Shown: positions 16,133 to 33,358 of the stretch, in pieces | Layout: each line of letters begins with the position of its first letter | How positions within the stretch are numbered: position 1 is the first letter of the stretch | Source: Oligoflexales bacterium | Lineage (GTDB): Bacteria > Bdellovibrionota_B > Oligoflexia > Oligoflexales > RGVZ01 | Reading direction: 5' to 3' | DNA: 33,358 bases | Assembly: GCA_947476525.1 (NCBI GenBank) | Contig: CANJQY010000012.1 | Span: 1 to 33,358, forward strand | Made by a program: the position numbers and the translations under genes | The notes under the pieces: generated by a model | What the model was told of the DNA's origin: nothing | The model's input: the letters and a program-made list of their open reading frames with translations, nothing else | Database searches by the model: none

Positions 16133-16381
16133 TTACTTCTTCTTAGCAGCTTTTTTGGTTGCTTTTTTAGCAACTTTTTTCGTTGCTTTTTTAGCAACTT
16201 TTTTCGTGGCTTTTTTGGTGGCTTTTTTAGCAACTTTTTTAGTTGCTTTCTTAGCTACTTTTTTCGTCGCCTTCTTGGCTACTTTTTTCGTCGCTTTTTT
16301 AGCAACTTTTTTTGTGGCCTTCTTAGTTGCCTTTTTGCGAGTTGCTTTTGCCACTGGGGCTCCGTGTTCTACATTATCCAT
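16133..16381 (-). CDS. Histone H1-like lysine/alanine-rich DNA-binding protein
   Basis: The 82-residue protein has a short N-terminal stretch (MDNVEHGAPVAKATR) and then about 65 residues built from repeats of KKATKKVA with KKAT insertions, ending AAKKK. Such sequences match the C-terminal tail of eukaryotic H1 and bacterial H1-like proteins (Hc1/AlgP types), which bind and condense DNA without sequence specificity. The DNA is likewise a set of near-identical 24-base units, so copy number may vary between strains. AGGAGG precedes ATG. It has its own terminator. A pentanucleotide repeat and a small palindrome lie in its leader. Confidence 0.85.
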   Translation of the reverse strand: MDNVEHGAPVAKATRKKATKKATKKVAKKATKKVAKKATKKVAKKATKKVAKKATKKATKKVAKKATKKVAKKATKKAAKKK

Positions 16382-24196: not shown

Positions 24197-26479
24197 TCAA
24201 GTCAGACTTTGATTCTTGACGGTCATTAAAAACCGGACGCATTCGATGGCTGACACCCTGTCATAACCAAATTTCCGCTCAAGTTCCAATAGGGTTGACT
24301 TAGCAGACGCATTTTCGACAGCGCTAAATTTCTTTTGAGCCTCACTATCTGGAGCCAAAATGGCCTTCAATGTCGCAGAAATTAGCAGAGACTTCTGGCC
24401 ATAATAATGCTCCTTTATCCGCTGTAAATGGTCGAAGAAAATGACGCCAAAATCAATCTTCTCCTTGGGATTGTCAATCTTATAGCTTGCAATCCGAGAC
24501 AATAAGCTTTCACGGAATCGTAGGGGGTCGCCGCCGCTGACTCCCAATATCACCTCGACGTCATTCATCTGAGTTTCCGATGGAATTTCGTTACTTTCCT
24601 TCTTTTGATTAAATATATTCTCCTTCTTTACAAACGCTACCGCCTGCTCAACGTATTTCGAAAGTACTTGCTCGTATTGCCCCTCCTCTACCAGCGACAT
24701 AGCAGAAAGCAACTCCCCCTCGAACACCCCGGCAAACCAGTCTTTGACGTTACGTATGAAAAACGCCGCATCATGATACTTGTTGCGAGGCTCGAATTGT
24801 AGGAAATCATAGACGCTTCGCTCCTTGAGAAAATGCTCAAGCGCCGTCATTATCACCATCGGAGTGATAGTTTCAAACGACTCGTCTTCGCCCACCCTAT
24901 GGATTAAAGCCCGAACTTCTCGGGGGGAGGCACCAAACCGTCCCTCATAGATGGCATTTCTTGATGACTCATTTAAAATCATTGGGCGAATTTGCCGAAG
25001 GATCGATTGATCCGCAGCCACAAATGCGTCGCCAGTAGGTTGTCTGTCGTAAAGCATCGCTTTCGCAAATGGCTCCAAACGATTGATCACACCCCGAAAT
25101 TCGTTCGGATAAGAGTCCGCATCAGGATGCATTATGCGGGTTAAAATAGCCCACAAGGCCAGCGATTCTATCGAGTGAGGCGCAATTTTCTTCACTTTTG
25201 AGATGGCTGCAACATCGCGTTTGTAAATTTTAACTTCATCTGAAATCTTGAGCAAATATGGCACCTTGATAAACTCGAATCGGCCCCGAAACGAGCCAAA
25301 ATCCGGCAGTGTCTTAAATGCGTCAAGGTGAGTTTCATTGGCGGTTGCGAAAAAAACGACGTCTAAATTTTGCACCGCCGAAGGCAGTGCAAGGGTTGCC
25401 CTCTCCACAGTTGTCAGCAGATATTTAAATGTCTCCGTAGGCCGCTTCAAAAGGTCGCTAAATTCCAAAATTCCACGGTTCGCTTCGACGATTTCACCAA
25501 CACACTCGGTAAACCGGATGTTGTGGAGCACTGCCGGAAGGTTCGCTATATTGCGGTCCATGGTTAGCTGTTTTTCTTGGGCGTCCATAGACATTTGTGG
25601 CTCTACCGTAGAAATACCAACTCGGTACTGTCGCGAATAGAAAAATCGCTCGACCTGAATGTGACTATATACCTTTTGAACCTCGCCTTCATAAGCGACC
25701 AACAAATTCTCAAATATTAATTGATTTCTTTTACTCAAGCCCGACAAGAAAATGTGAGCTGAACATTCTACATCCTTAAGATCAGCACGGTCCGAATTCG
25801 CCACGTAGTCTTTCAGTAACTTTTCACGAAATGGCATGGGAATCAAAAACAGTGGATTCTCTTTGAATTCACTTTGTAATTTGCTCGAAATTTGGTTTTC
25901 ACTAAGCGTCGCAAAACTCTCTCCCTTCGCTGTACTGGCTTCATATTTAGAAGAGAATCCAATTTTGCCCGCCTCACCGCTAATGGCGCGCGGTGTTGAG
26001 CCTTTATCAACCGGAAATATCCAATTAAATCGGTACACAGACCCCTCGTCGGTCTCGCTATACCGCTGCATTGCATGGGAAATGGCCTCAATCGTTGAAG
26101 ATTTGGCAGAGCCGTTTGGTCCATGCAAAAAAATCACTTTGTTGGCAATCCCCTGCCTAACAAAACCCTGCAACACCCGAAAAATATCCTGCTGAACACT
26201 TTCGCCTCCTACAATAGGAATTCCTTTGTCGGTGCCGTTGTCGAAGAGAGTAAAACGACGAAAATCAGCCGTTTCGTTCAGCTTGTCTGAGTTTGGATTG
26301 GTCACCCCGAAATACAAAAAACAATCTCGCAAATACTCAGACGCATTGCGCATCAACCTATGCGGATTGGCCTTTACTACGTCTAAAAACTGGTCAAACG
26401 ACAAAATACTCTGCCGCGCCCTGTACAGATGTTTAATCTCAGTAGAGATGTGATCAACTGATTCCATTTTTTCCACCAT
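24197..26479 (-). CDS. prkA: PrkA-type AAA+ serine protein kinase
   Basis: The 760-residue protein shows the PrkA arrangement: an N-terminal helical part (about 1-75), an AAA+ module with Walker A LHGPNGSAKSST (about 118-129), and a C-terminal PrkA domain. Family-like segments are DVVFFATANETHLDAF (sensor-like), GSFRGRFEFIKVPYLL and GRFGASPREVRALIHR. PrkA proteins are described as serine kinases and, in Bacillus, as having AAA+ protease-like activity. It is longer than E. coli YeaG (about 640), and the usual neighbours yeaH and spoVR are absent. The ATG at 26479 shares one base with the stop of the tandem-receiver gene (TAATG); ATG at 26467, preceded by GGTGGA, is the alternative start. The two products are probably made in fixed ratio. 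Confidence 0.9.
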   Translation of the reverse strand: MVEKMESVDHISTEIKHLYRARQSILSFDQFLDVVKANPHRLMRNASEYLRDCFLYFGVTNPNSDKLNETADFRRFTLFDNGTDKGIPIVGGESVQQDIFRVLQGFVRQGIANKVIFLHGPNGSAKSSTIEAISHAMQRYSETDEGSVYRFNWIFPVDKGSTPRAISGEAGKIGFSSKYEASTAKGESFATLSENQISSKLQSEFKENPLFLIPMPFREKLLKDYVANSDRADLKDVECSAHIFLSGLSKRNQLIFENLLVAYEGEVQKVYSHIQVERFFYSRQYRVGISTVEPQMSMDAQEKQLTMDRNIANLPAVLHNIRFTECVGEIVEANRGILEFSDLLKRPTETFKYLLTTVERATLALPSAVQNLDVVFFATANETHLDAFKTLPDFGSFRGRFEFIKVPYLLKISDEVKIYKRDVAAISKVKKIAPHSIESLALWAILTRIMHPDADSYPNEFRGVINRLEPFAKAMLYDRQPTGDAFVAADQSILRQIRPMILNESSRNAIYEGRFGASPREVRALIHRVGEDESFETITPMVIMTALEHFLKERSVYDFLQFEPRNKYHDAAFFIRNVKDWFAGVFEGELLSAMSLVEEGQYEQVLSKYVEQAVAFVKKENIFNQKKESNEIPSETQMNDVEVILGVSGGDPLRFRESLLSRIASYKIDNPKEKIDFGVIFFDHLQRIKEHYYGQKSLLISATLKAILAPDSEAQKKFSAVENASAKSTLLELERKFGYDRVSAIECVRFLMTVKNQSLT

Positions 26480-27276
26480 TATTCGACCAACTTTCCAATT
26501 TGCGCCACCAACTCTTCTACCGATTTAAATGGCTTTTCCATGATGTCATTACCACCGGCCGCTAGCGCCTCTAACGCTTCCGGCTCACTTCGTCCGTGCC
26601 CCGTCATTACAATAATCGGAATCGATGCGTTCAGTTGGCGAATTCGAAGAATAGCTTCCTTTCCCGACATTGTAGGCATGTTCAAATCTATAATAATAAC
26701 ATCAAATTTTTGAACTGCAAAACAAGCCAAGGCTTCCATTGGATCTGTAAATGTATGAAGGTAATAATAGTCTTCCAACAGAAGTTGTAATATTTCAACG
26801 ATTCCCGCATCATCATCCATTGCCAAAACCCTAGGCTTCGACTTCTGTCCAGAAACAACCGGAGCCGCAGCAACAGCAGCAGCAGCAGCAGCCGGATCCT
26901 GCCCCTCCAATAATTTTTGAAGCAATCCTATGATCTTTCCTGGATCGCCAAATGGCTTAAACAATACCTCACTTGCTCCCAATCCAATCGCTTCCGCTTT
27001 ATCAGCAACCGTCTGAGCATGACCCGTGATTAACACCACAAAAACTCCAGGACGCACCGATTTCACGTGCTTCACGACGTCAAGCCCAGATAGAAATGGC
27101 ATTCTTATATCTGAAATGACTAAATCATAGTGCCTTTTTGTGATCTCTGCACAAGCCTCTCGCGGATCTGTAAAAATTGTTACATCAAAATCGTCTCCGA
27201 GGAATATGCCCAATAGAGCACCGATCTCGGGCTCATCATCCACAATTAGTACCGAAGGATTTTTTGACATCGCCAT
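26479..27276 (-). CDS. Tandem receiver (REC-REC) response regulator
   Basis: The 265-residue protein contains two complete receiver domains and no output domain. REC1 (about 7-125) has DDE at 13-15, phosphoacceptor Asp56 in VISDIRMP, Thr84 in VLITGHA and Lys107 in LFKPFG. REC2 (about 148-265) has DDD at 154-156, Asp197 in IIIDLNMP, VMTGHG and EKPFKS. The linker (about 127-146) is an alanine run encoded by GCA/GCC repeats, so its length could vary. Its stop overlaps the start of the PrkA gene, which implies that phosphorylation state is coupled to that AAA+ protein. AGGA lies before the start. Confidence 0.93.
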   Translation of the reverse strand: MAMSKNPSVLIVDDEPEIGALLGIFLGDDFDVTIFTDPREACAEITKRHYDLVISDIRMPFLSGLDVVKHVKSVRPGVFVVLITGHAQTVADKAEAIGLGASEVLFKPFGDPGKIIGLLQKLLEGQDPAAAAAAVAAAPVVSGQKSKPRVLAMDDDAGIVEILQLLLEDYYYLHTFTDPMEALACFAVQKFDVIIIDLNMPTMSGKEAILRIRQLNASIPIIVMTGHGRSEPEALEALAAGGNDIMEKPFKSVEELVAQIGKLVE

Positions 27277-30171: not shown

Positions 30172-30630
30172 CGGTTAAAAACACATCTCACTGCGGGCGT
30201 TAGCAAGTCGCTGTCGCCGGAAAACGCCGCAGAGAGACTTGTCCCGAGCGACGAGGGGTCTCGGCCAATAACCACGAGCGTTGTTCTGCGTCTTATCTGG
30301 CCAATCCTGGCATCTCCCTGGACAATATCGGTGGTAAAAGCGGGGGGGGGATTGGCATGGTTACGGTTCAATAGTTAGCCAGCGGCATTTGTGTGACCCT
30401 CTGAAAAACATAACCCACTGAAATTTAAATATATATTTGCACATTAGCCGACCGCCGGGCTGGTTAGCCACGACTAACCGTCAAGAGCTAATGTGTGCTA
30501 TAGGCCTCGTTTACATGTTTTCAAATTGCTGGTGAACGTGCTAGCATAAGTTCTTTATAGGGCTCTTTATGGGGTATATTTTGAGCCTGTTATCGTTCGT
30601 GCTTTTAACTACACTATGAGGAGTATTTGT
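30172..30630. other. Gene-free leader between phoH and infC
   Basis: No convincing gene occurs in these 459 bases. Just after phoH, GCGG-GCGTT (about 30199-30207) and AACGC-CGC (about 30223-30231) can pair, a possible terminator without a T-run. A run of nine G lies at 30342-30350. A large nested inverted repeat follows at 30439-30498. The last 120 bases before infC are AT-rich and must hold its promoter, but no consensus pair stands out. Confidence 0.5.
30439..30498 (+). promoter_or_regulatory. Nested inverted repeat in the infC leader
   Basis: The outer arms GCACATTAGC (30439-30448) and GCTAATGTGTGC (30487-30498) pair with one bulged base. Inside, GGTTAG (30462-30467) and CTAACC (30474-30479) form a second hairpin, extended by GAC/GTC. 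The fold is a branched, bulged RNA or a cruciform. It could be an RNA leader, an operator pair or a terminator-like block. It lies 133 bases before the chosen infC start. Confidence 0.6.
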
Positions 30631-31104
30631 TTGCTAGTTATCAATCGTGCCGCCGCTCGCAGTTATACGAAAGTTCGCCTTGTTGGCGAAGAAGCCAATG
30701 AAGTCATGTCAGTTCTAGAGGCGCTTTCGCGCGCAGAAGATTCAGGACTAGACCTCGTGATGATCAGCGACAAGGGAGACTTCCCGGTCATGCGCATTCA
30801 GGACTTTAAGAAGGTCCAGTACGAATTGAAAAAAGCCAAGAAAAAACAAATCGTTCAAGAACTAAAAGAAATCCAGCTCAAACTTAATATTGCGGAGCAC
30901 GATCTTTCAACAAAAGTTGGTGCCATAGAGAAATTTTTGGCTCGTGGCGACAAGGTTAAAGTCATCGTCCGACTTAAGGGACGGGAGCGAGAAAACCCAG
31001 AGCGTGCGCGCACACTACTGGAGCGAGTGATCACCAGCGTAAAGTGCAAGGCGAGTTATGTGCCGGGACCGATTACGATTGCGATTTTAGAATCACTCAA
31101 ATGA
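30631..31104 (+). CDS. infC: Translation initiation factor IF-3 (divergent)
   Basis: IF-3 binds the 30S subunit and checks start codon and initiator tRNA. N-domain segments here are VINRAAARSYTKVRLVGEEA and GLDLVMIS, then the basic linker KKAKKKQ. The C-domain follows with VQELKEIQLKLNIAEHDL, GDKVKVIVRLKGRE and the final pattern GPITIAIL. The likely start is TTG 30631 (157 residues), seven bases after GAGGAG. The ATG at 30616 overlaps that Shine-Dalgarno and has none of its own. IF-3 genes commonly use rare starts (AUU in E. coli) for autoregulation; ATT 30625 is too close to the ribosome site. Usual motifs such as PPVCRIMDYGK are changed (FPVMRIQDFKK). A terminator follows, so rpmI and rplT are not co-transcribed. 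It may be a second IF-3 copy. Confidence 0.85.
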   Translation: MLVINRAAARSYTKVRLVGEEANEVMSVLEALSRAEDSGLDLVMISDKGDFPVMRIQDFKKVQYELKKAKKKQIVQELKEIQLKLNIAEHDLSTKVGAIEKFLARGDKVKVIVRLKGRERENPERARTLLERVITSVKCKASYVPGPITIAILESLK

Positions 31105-31425: not shown

Positions 31426-32328
31426 ATGAAAAAAATAGCCGAGAATCGTTATCCCAATTCGGCCACTCTATTCAAATTCTGCAAAGAGGCGCTTGCGATT
31501 CGCTACGAAGGCAACGTCAAAGTTATCGACCAAGATGTCGGTGCGATATTGGGCTATGACCCAGCTGATTGCAGCCATTGGAAGAAGGGCAAGAAGAATA
31601 TTCGCGCACTTTCGACCTTGCGTGCTATTGCTGATCATCTTGCGATTGACGATCGCCTTTTGATCGAAATCGCCGCTGGAAAAGTTGGATTTGACGAGGC
31701 TGTTTTTGAATTTCGCGGATACGGTTCATTTGCGTTAAATGGTCGTACCGGTGAAAACCTGAAAAAAGAATTTTTCAAAAACCCGTCTCGGTATCAAGGC
31801 GACAATGCGAAACTAACGTTTGAAGAGTTATTCGACATTGACCGTGCGAGTGTTTATAAGTCCGTCGAATCCCTTCTTGCCATTGGAAAATTCGAGGAAG
31901 CGCCGATTTACATCCCAGAAATTTGTAATCTATTTCCAAATTTTGGAATCGTGTCAGACGACACAGTCTCAACCGCAGTCGACGTTAAGTCTGAGGGCCA
32001 AGGTGCAGACCTTCGCGTGACGGTTCGTTACACTGGTAGCGATATGCGTCCATACCTTCGATTCCTCGTCGCAAAGGAACTCTTCAAATATTTGATCCGT
32101 AGTGGCAGCATGCATGTTGCGAACATTCGCTCCTGCCCAGAAGAAGTACTGGATATTCGAGCAAATATCTTCGCAGGTCTTTTGTTAGTTCCTGGAAAGA
32201 TGCTTCGCAAAGAAGTTGAAAAAATCGACTCCGCGCATGATATCGTTATGCAATTATCTGAAACCTTCTGGGTATCGAAGGCTATGATGAACCAAAGACT
32301 GCGCGACTACATGGAAAATTTAACGTAA
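31426..32328 (+). CDS. HTH regulator with degenerate ImmA/IrrE-like domain
   Basis: The 300-residue protein starts with ATG seven bases after AGGAGGT. An XRE-like helix-turn-helix lies at about 30-80: DQDVGAILGYDPADCSHWKKGKKN, then LSTLRAIADHL. The C-terminal part (about 205-300) follows the DUF955/ImmA-IrrE metallopeptidase pattern: RPYLRFLVAKELFKYLI, then DIRANIFAGLLLVPGKML. The zinc motif HExxH is replaced by KELFK (217-221), so it should not be a protease, and it may keep only a structural or ligand-binding role. ImmA/IrrE proteins usually cleave a partner repressor. The gene has its own promoter with overlapping palindromes and its own terminator, so it is a single-gene unit. Confidence 0.75.
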   Translation: MKKIAENRYPNSATLFKFCKEALAIRYEGNVKVIDQDVGAILGYDPADCSHWKKGKKNIRALSTLRAIADHLAIDDRLLIEIAAGKVGFDEAVFEFRGYGSFALNGRTGENLKKEFFKNPSRYQGDNAKLTFEELFDIDRASVYKSVESLLAIGKFEEAPIYIPEICNLFPNFGIVSDDTVSTAVDVKSEGQGADLRVTVRYTGSDMRPYLRFLVAKELFKYLIRSGSMHVANIRSCPEEVLDIRANIFAGLLLVPGKMLRKEVEKIDSAHDIVMQLSETFWVSKAMMNQRLRDYMENLT

Positions 32329-32348: not shown

Positions 32349-32379
32349 AAAACCAAAGGGGAAACCCTTTGGTTTTTTT
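32349..32379 (+). terminator. Intrinsic terminator of the HTH gene
   Basis: AACCAAAGGG (32351-32360) and CCCTTTGGTT (32365-32374) pair fully around a GAAA tetraloop and run into seven T (32373-32379). It begins 20 bases after the stop codon. Confidence 0.93.
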
Positions 32380-32497
32380 GTTTTTGACCAAATCCGATTT
32401 AGCCTTAAGAGAGGTACTCGACCTCAAGTTTTTAAACGAAGTTCCGATTAATGTTTGCAGATGCGCATCTTAGTCCACATATGTATGGGAATGCTAC

Positions 32498-33358
32498 ATG
32501 AGCAACGCGTTTAAACTTTCAAATGGCAACGTCCTTCTTTCAACAGAAGCGCCTGGCGGGATTTATAATGCCTCCCAGTTGAAGAAGATCGCGGCACTGT
32601 GCGACAGAGAATCTATCATCGTCAAAGCTACCGAGGATCACCGGCTGGCACTTTTTGTAAATCCAGACAAGGCCACCGAGATCACAGCCGAACTGCAGTC
32701 CATCGGCCTAGGCGTTAGACCCTATCAAGAAGGGCTTCACCAGCCGGTAAGTTGCATTGGCGAGCTATGCAAGGACCACGAGCAAGACGCACTCGGAACC
32801 GCCTTAGACATCACCTCAGAGCTCGAGGCCATTGCCTTGAATAGCGTCTTAAAAATCGGAATCAACGGCTGTGCTAAATGTTGCGTTCCTTGCCACACCT
32901 TGGATATTAGTATTGTGGGTGATCCGAACGGCTACCGAATTTCATTGGGTGGCAAAAACTCGCAACTGGCAGAAATGGCTAGTTTCATGGCCGACGGCGT
33001 TCCGGCGGCTGAGACCCCTAGGCTCGTCAAATCTATCGTAGAAATCTTCAAGCAGAATTCTCAAACTGGCGAATCCCTTCAAGAGCTAATCGAGCGAGCG
33101 GGAGGGGCAGCCTTTGTTGCCGCTCTAGCACCTTGGAGCCAAGACGCAGCCGACACAGGCGATCCATTTGGATCCTCATCTGGGGCATCTGAGGCATCTG
33201 AGGCATCTGAGGCATCTGAGGCATCTGAGGCATCTGAGGCATCTGAGGCATCTGAGGCATCTGAGGCATCTGAGGCATCTGAGGCATCTGAGGCATCTGA
33301 GGCATCTGAGGCATCTGAGTTAGAAATGGACTTGGCCGGCGAAGAACAAGAAGAGACA
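32498..33358 (+). CDS. Minimal sulfite/nitrite-reductase-like siroheme 4Fe-4S protein with ASE repeat tail (3' end outside window)
   Basis: The frame is open from ATG 32498 (GGGA seven bases upstream) to the right edge, at least 287 residues. Residues about 18-75 match the ferredoxin-like half domain of sulfite/nitrite reductases: GGIYNASQLKKIAALC and LALFVNPDK. Residues about 84-195 match the siroheme/4Fe-4S domain: SCIGELCKDHEQD (Cys86, Cys91), LKIGINGCAKCCVPCHTLDI (Cys125, 128, 129, 132) and GDPNGYRISLGGK. Cysteine spacing differs slightly from the usual Cx5C...Cx3C. Real reductases carry two such halves; this has one. From residue 230 comes (Ala-Ser-Glu)15 and then an acidic end. It could be a small reductase, a siroheme carrier or an electron-transfer protein. 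Confidence 0.8.
   Translation, partial: MSNAFKLSNGNVLLSTEAPGGIYNASQLKKIAALCDRESIIVKATEDHRLALFVNPDKATEITAELQSIGLGVRPYQEGLHQPVSCIGELCKDHEQDALGTALDITSELEAIALNSVLKIGINGCAKCCVPCHTLDISIVGDPNGYRISLGGKNSQLAEMASFMADGVPAAETPRLVKSIVEIFKQNSQTGESLQELIERAGGAAFVAALAPWSQDAADTGDPFGSSSGASEASEASEASEASEASEASEASEASEASEASEASEASEASEASELEMDLAGEEQEET
33185..33319 (+). repeat. Fifteen perfect GCATCTGAG tandem repeats
   Basis: The nine-base unit is repeated 15 times without a single mismatch over 135 bases, in frame with the reductase-like gene, where it encodes Ala-Ser-Glu each time. Perfect identity means recent expansion or ongoing slippage. Changes in copy number keep the frame, so tail length but not expression would vary. 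Confidence 0.97.

Follow-up and report, generated by a model that had tools for sequence, protein, structure and literature searches.

Can a gene that encodes one half of a sulfite or nitrite reductase, followed by a long run of identical nine-base repeats, make a siroheme enzyme, as was originally predicted for this locus? The gene is the last one in the window, the stretch of 33,358 bases analyzed here, which is a whole contig of a 2.74-Mb, 176-contig assembly with an estimated completeness of 88%. Because the window is the entire contig and the reading frame, which starts with ATG, runs off its end without a stop codon, the gene is cut at the contig end. The features of the region are as follows.

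31426 to 32328, + strand: upstream neighbor, encoding a 300-aa M78/IrrE-like protein; adjoins the reductase-like gene in four families of the order; HExxH zinc motif degenerate
32349 to 32386, + strand: intrinsic-terminator-like hairpin (12-pair stem, T-run) between the M78-like and reductase-like genes
32498 to 33358, + strand: truncated reductase-like gene, first 287 codons (closed orthologs, 397 to 813 aa)
32543 to 32701, + strand: NIR_SIR_ferr, ferredoxin-like half domain, residues 16 to 68 (Pfam PF03460, sub-threshold in five orthologs)
32750 to 33127, + strand: NIR_SIR 4Fe-4S domain, residues 85 to 210 (Pfam PF01077, E = 1.6e-12)
32753 to 32770, + strand: C86-x4-C91, first half of the cluster ligand set (41/41 orthologs; aligns with C-x5-C of NirB)
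32870 to 32884, + strand: C125-x3-C129, second half of the cluster ligand set (41/41 orthologs)
33143 to 33358, + strand: start of the acidic tail (D+E, 22 to 41%, and K+R, 1 to 9%, in closed orthologs)
33185 to 33319, + strand: (GCATCTGAG)15, a perfect tandem array encoding (Ala-Ser-Glu)15, residues 230 to 274

A truncated gene and its closed orthologs

The rest of the gene was found nowhere else in the assembly when its last 31 bases were used as the query, nor when the C-terminus of a relative was used, in a search that had no positive control. In closed orthologs, the module is followed by an acidic tail of 107 to 523 aa and a conserved C-terminal beta domain of about 75 aa. A second reductase half past the contig end was therefore rejected. 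The prediction of one reductase-type half without a second thus stands: the protein has a single NIR_SIR_ferr plus NIR_SIR module, and genomes of the window's own genus have a single NIR_SIR match. The premise that such proteins need two siroheme/ferredoxin halves does not stand, as the one-module proteins NirB, Fsr, and Dsr-LP are already known. The C-terminal domain gave no noteworthy Pfam match and, with a model built from only four sequences (pLDDT of 76), no Foldseek match at an E value of ≤0.001.

The NIR_SIR domain, which also defines sulfite and nitrite reductases (SiR/NiR), scored 47.6 bits against a curated cutoff of 27. NIR_SIR_ferr, spanning about residues 13 to 68, stayed below the threshold in all five orthologs tested (E values of 0.0007 to 0.023); within it, T45-E46-D47 is invariant and R49 is found in 40 of the 41 orthologs. 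The nearest NCBIfam model is NirB (TIGR02374), of which only the C-terminal module is matched (positions 558 to 753), with a score of 59.1 bits versus the curated cutoff of 578 bits for full-length NirB, which has FAD and Fer2_BFD domains. The predicted structure of the module has Fsr (7np8 and 7npa) as its top Foldseek matches; its confidence is modest (pLDDT of 63) and lowest around the cysteines, the alignments being shallow.

A scan of genome contigs found five loci in close relatives, metagenome-assembled genomes mostly in or near Oligoflexales. Whole-genome searches found single-copy orthologs in 33 of the 43 genomes of the order, and the gene was matched in 46 of the 58 genomes of the phylum set, sister group included (E value of about 1e-50), a count that includes two weak or partial matches (G043 and G046). 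The match in G043, a small 1.2-Mb genome of the class, contains a stop (G043:C27:6828-7241) and is possibly a decayed copy. Additional matches were true NirB in G027 and G033 and a canonical SiR half in G014. Each of these two NirB genes (L079 and L080, respectively) lies in a large genome of the order that also has the half-module, and they serve as internal controls.

infC, the M78/IrrE-like gene, and the reductase-like gene form a row of three in the genus of the window and in other families of its order. The infC gene (IF-3) lies at 30616 to 31104 on the + strand, and its first listed ATG is perhaps not the real start; infC often starts at a rare start codon. At the N-terminus of the M78/IrrE-like protein, the stretch VKVIDQDVGAILGYDPADCSHWKKGKKNI is nearly invariant; the HExxH zinc motif is absent in 10 of 10 aligned orthologs, and the protein is probably a protease-dead regulator. 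The row is not present in the sister group, and no common neighbors, as of a conserved operon, were found in the sister order. Because of this absence, and because of the terminator-like hairpin between the two genes, the gene context is uninformative and points neither to a function nor to redox sensing. Elsewhere in the window, a gene on the − strand (16134 to 16381) encodes an 82-aa, histone H1-like protein rich in Lys, Ala, and Thr and made of KKATKKVA repeats, which makes it another tandem-repeat gene, and at 24197 to 27276 (− strand) a gene with a PrkA-like kinase match adjoins one whose product has two receiver-type domains.

Cluster ligands, sulfite-binding residues, and siroheme supply

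The original prediction placed six cysteines in the site, and all are present at the positions claimed (86, 91, 125, 128, 129, and 132). Four of them, Cys86, Cys91, Cys125, and Cys129, are invariant in the 41 orthologs and stand in a ligand arrangement from which a [4Fe-4S] cluster can be predicted; the other two are variable, Cys128 being found in 25 and Cys132 in 18 of the 41. The canonical cluster motif is CX5CXnCX3C (PMC10229431), and the first pair of the window protein and its orthologs is one residue short of it (C-x4-C...C-x3-C). His133, beside the cluster site, is found in 30 of the 41 orthologs, with Ala or Ser in the other 11.

Four basic residues of Fsr, Arg355, Arg423, Lys460, and Lys462, are perfectly conserved across sulfite reductases (PMC10229431). 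Mapped onto the orthologs by sequence alignment only, they fall on D47 (41/41), on position 81 (His in 30, Leu in 7, and Pro in 4), and on positions 117 and 119, where Lys occurs in 1 of 41 and Lys or Arg in 30 of 41 orthologs, respectively. Three of the four sulfite-binding residues that mark SiR/NiR are thus lost. NirB of the order keeps the last three.

SUMT (TIGR01469), the entry enzyme of siroheme synthesis, was not matched in the genome that carries the window or elsewhere in its genus; in the family, no match exceeded the cutoff, and one sub-threshold match (G041; E = 9e-4) was not counted. Precorrin-2 dehydrogenase (TIGR01470) gave no over-cutoff match in the same genome, genus, and family either, with the genomes searched being partly incomplete. 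In the order, SUMT exceeded the cutoff only in G014, G016, G017, G027, G031, G032, and G033, and precisely these seven also encode a canonical SiR or NirB (P = 3e-8, ignoring kinship). The canonical copy of G017 is a fragment at a contig end, adjoining SUMT; in the other six genomes, canonical enzyme and one-module protein are found side by side. SUMT presence differs within two genera (g14 and g23) and still tracks the canonical enzymes. Precorrin-2 dehydrogenase exceeded the cutoff only in six of the seven SUMT-positive genomes (not in G033) and in G044. Among 15 further genomes, SUMT was found in G044 alone, together with only the half-module; further SUMT-like methyltransferases occur there, and these or the SUMT itself may have a role in cobalamin synthesis.

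SUMT was thus not detected in 38 of the 46 carriers, including genomes that are 96 to 98% complete and two that are single contigs; this absence is a homology-search result, and some of the genomes are incomplete. HemE was found in 40 of the 43 genomes of the order, the window's own included, and tetrapyrrole synthesis as such is therefore present. The name siroheme reductase, given in the original prediction, does not fit this protein: no entry enzyme for siroheme was detected in its own genome, and its sulfite site has lost three of four basic residues.

Known one-module proteins share some of these features. Like the C-terminal module of NirB, the window protein has one NIR_SIR_ferr and one NIR_SIR domain, a T-x-x-Q/H-R motif, and the cysteine ligand set, and NirB gives the best NCBIfam score. 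Unlike NirB, it has no FAD or Fer2_BFD domain, has C-x4-C in place of C-x5-C, has lost the first Lys of K-x-K and the Arg that precedes the first Cys by five residues, and belongs to a family whose members carry a new C-terminal domain behind an acidic tail. Group I Dsr-LPs and Dv-alSir are likewise small sulfite reductase-like proteins of one module that stands alone, with no ferredoxin domain inserted (PMC3448663). In Dsr-LPs, the motif that couples siroheme and cluster is retained, as are at least three of the four Arg/Lys residues that bind sulfite, the fourth being always present in group I (PMC3448663), whereas the window family keeps one or two at most and has Asn, Ser, or Thr at position 119 in 11 of 41 orthologs. 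Its tail and C-terminal domain have no counterpart in PMC3448663. Fsr likewise has a single reductase repeat, and one module per protomer is enough (PMC10229431), but the window protein has neither the F420H2-oxidase half nor the extra clusters of Fsr and does not keep its CX5CXnCX3C motif. The two-half enzymes (CysI, NirA, and Sir) have a homologous module, with two fused halves versus one in the window protein. Our literature search, which had partial coverage and is weak evidence on this point, found no account of a one-module family with an acidic tail.

In-frame repeats in the acidic tail

The predicted acidic tail of perfect nine-base repeats was confirmed, with 15 perfect copies of GCATCTGAG. 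Tandem Repeats Finder reported the array at 33177 to 33319 (143 bases), with 15.9 copies, 99% matches, and a score of 279; it is the sole array of its type in the assembly. With only 39 bases between the array and the contig end, and with the rest of the gene not found in the assembly, the repeat count in the window is uncertain.

Arrays of at least 2.5 copies were found in 17 of the 41 tails and in none of the 41 modules. Their periods range from 9 to 72 bases and are all multiples of 3. When the codons of the tails were shuffled, a mean of 0.46 tails had arrays, with a maximum of 3 in 50 runs versus the 17 observed. Copy number differs between close relatives. The sister species carrying L091 and L094, with a module identity of 95%, have 6.6 and 15.5 copies, respectively, of the same 21-base unit in the same place, and L088 and L089 have 2.7 and 4.8 copies of a 69-base unit. 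The tail is thus a length-variable, in-frame repeat tract at the species level, in line with the proposal that it varies in length. On/off phase variation was rejected as a mechanism, given the nine-base unit and the periods in whole codons throughout the family.

Interpretation and alternatives

We favor, with some reserve, the reading that the gene's product is a [4Fe-4S] protein that arose from a NirB-like module, carries no siroheme, and has a variable acidic tether and a C-terminal domain. The module would hold the cluster on Cys86, Cys91, Cys125, and Cys129, and the acidic tail would be a long tether, probably disordered, with the C-terminal beta domain as its attachment/docking or effector end. 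Whole-codon tandem repeats would lengthen or shorten the tether with the frame intact, and length changes would be tolerated; (ASE)15 would be a young expansion of this kind. The module may act as a redox- or Fe-S-sensing head or as an electron relay, a role that is conceivable but, judged by itself, doubtful. Several points count against the siroheme-free reading: the reductase fold and the four ligand cysteines are kept, as a siroheme enzyme would show too; G044 has SUMT with only the half-module detected; siroheme might be scavenged by carriers that lack SUMT; and the structure model and the gene context, as described above, give little help.

A rival reading is a true siroheme-dependent reductase of nitrite or sulfite with one module, a NirB-like homodimer that scavenges siroheme or obtains it by an unrecognized route. 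NirB is the closest family, at 59 bits, the ligand cysteines, R49, and (in the order) K119 are retained, and the top Foldseek matches are to Fsr, which manages with one module per protomer (PMC10229431). We nevertheless consider such an enzyme unlikely. SUMT is missing from most carriers, nearly complete and single-contig genomes among them, three of the four sulfite-binding basic residues are altered, neither an electron-donor domain nor such a neighbor was seen, and the siroheme genes track the canonical enzymes and not the half-module gene. Heme or another tetrapyrrole might take the place of siroheme next to the cluster, which would agree with HemE in nearly all carriers of the order and with His133 beside the cluster site; this is improbable, given the replacement of that His by Ala or Ser in 11 orthologs and the loss of most of the basic residues for tetrapyrrole carboxylates.

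A decaying, functionless remnant of NirB or SiR could account for the lost active-site residues, but it is contradicted by retention of the gene across the class, the invariant cysteines, the conserved C-terminal domain, and a module identity of 82% to the nearest relative, and we give it hardly any credence. As for the array, the assembler may have closed it at the wrong length near the contig end, the real one being shorter or longer. The position of the array and the missing remainder of the gene would allow this; a miscount would not create an array, though, and comparable in-frame arrays occur in the same tail of 16 other orthologs, some of them from single-contig genomes (L089 and L094), so that we see little likelihood of an artifact.

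For the family of siroheme-free proteins as a whole, we offer a more tentative proposal: that across the class a reductase module was stripped of siroheme to become a [4Fe-4S] sensor or relay on a repeat-tuned acidic tether, whose slippage-evolved length tunes the reach of the head to a partner. All known sulfite reductases have been described as sharing the siroheme-cysteine-[4Fe-4S] center (PMC10229431). If our reading is true, the persistence of the cluster ligands in a conserved family whose hosts mostly have no detected siroheme genes would mean that this fold is open to a noncatalytic Fe-S role. Because defining features of nitrite and sulfite reductases were tested and found lacking, the protein should not be filed as either. 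Automatic annotation likely gives such genes this label, and sulfur or nitrogen metabolism may therefore be misassigned to these bacteria. The tail, for its part, offers a tractable example of how repeats that vary in frame can lengthen a linker within a protein.
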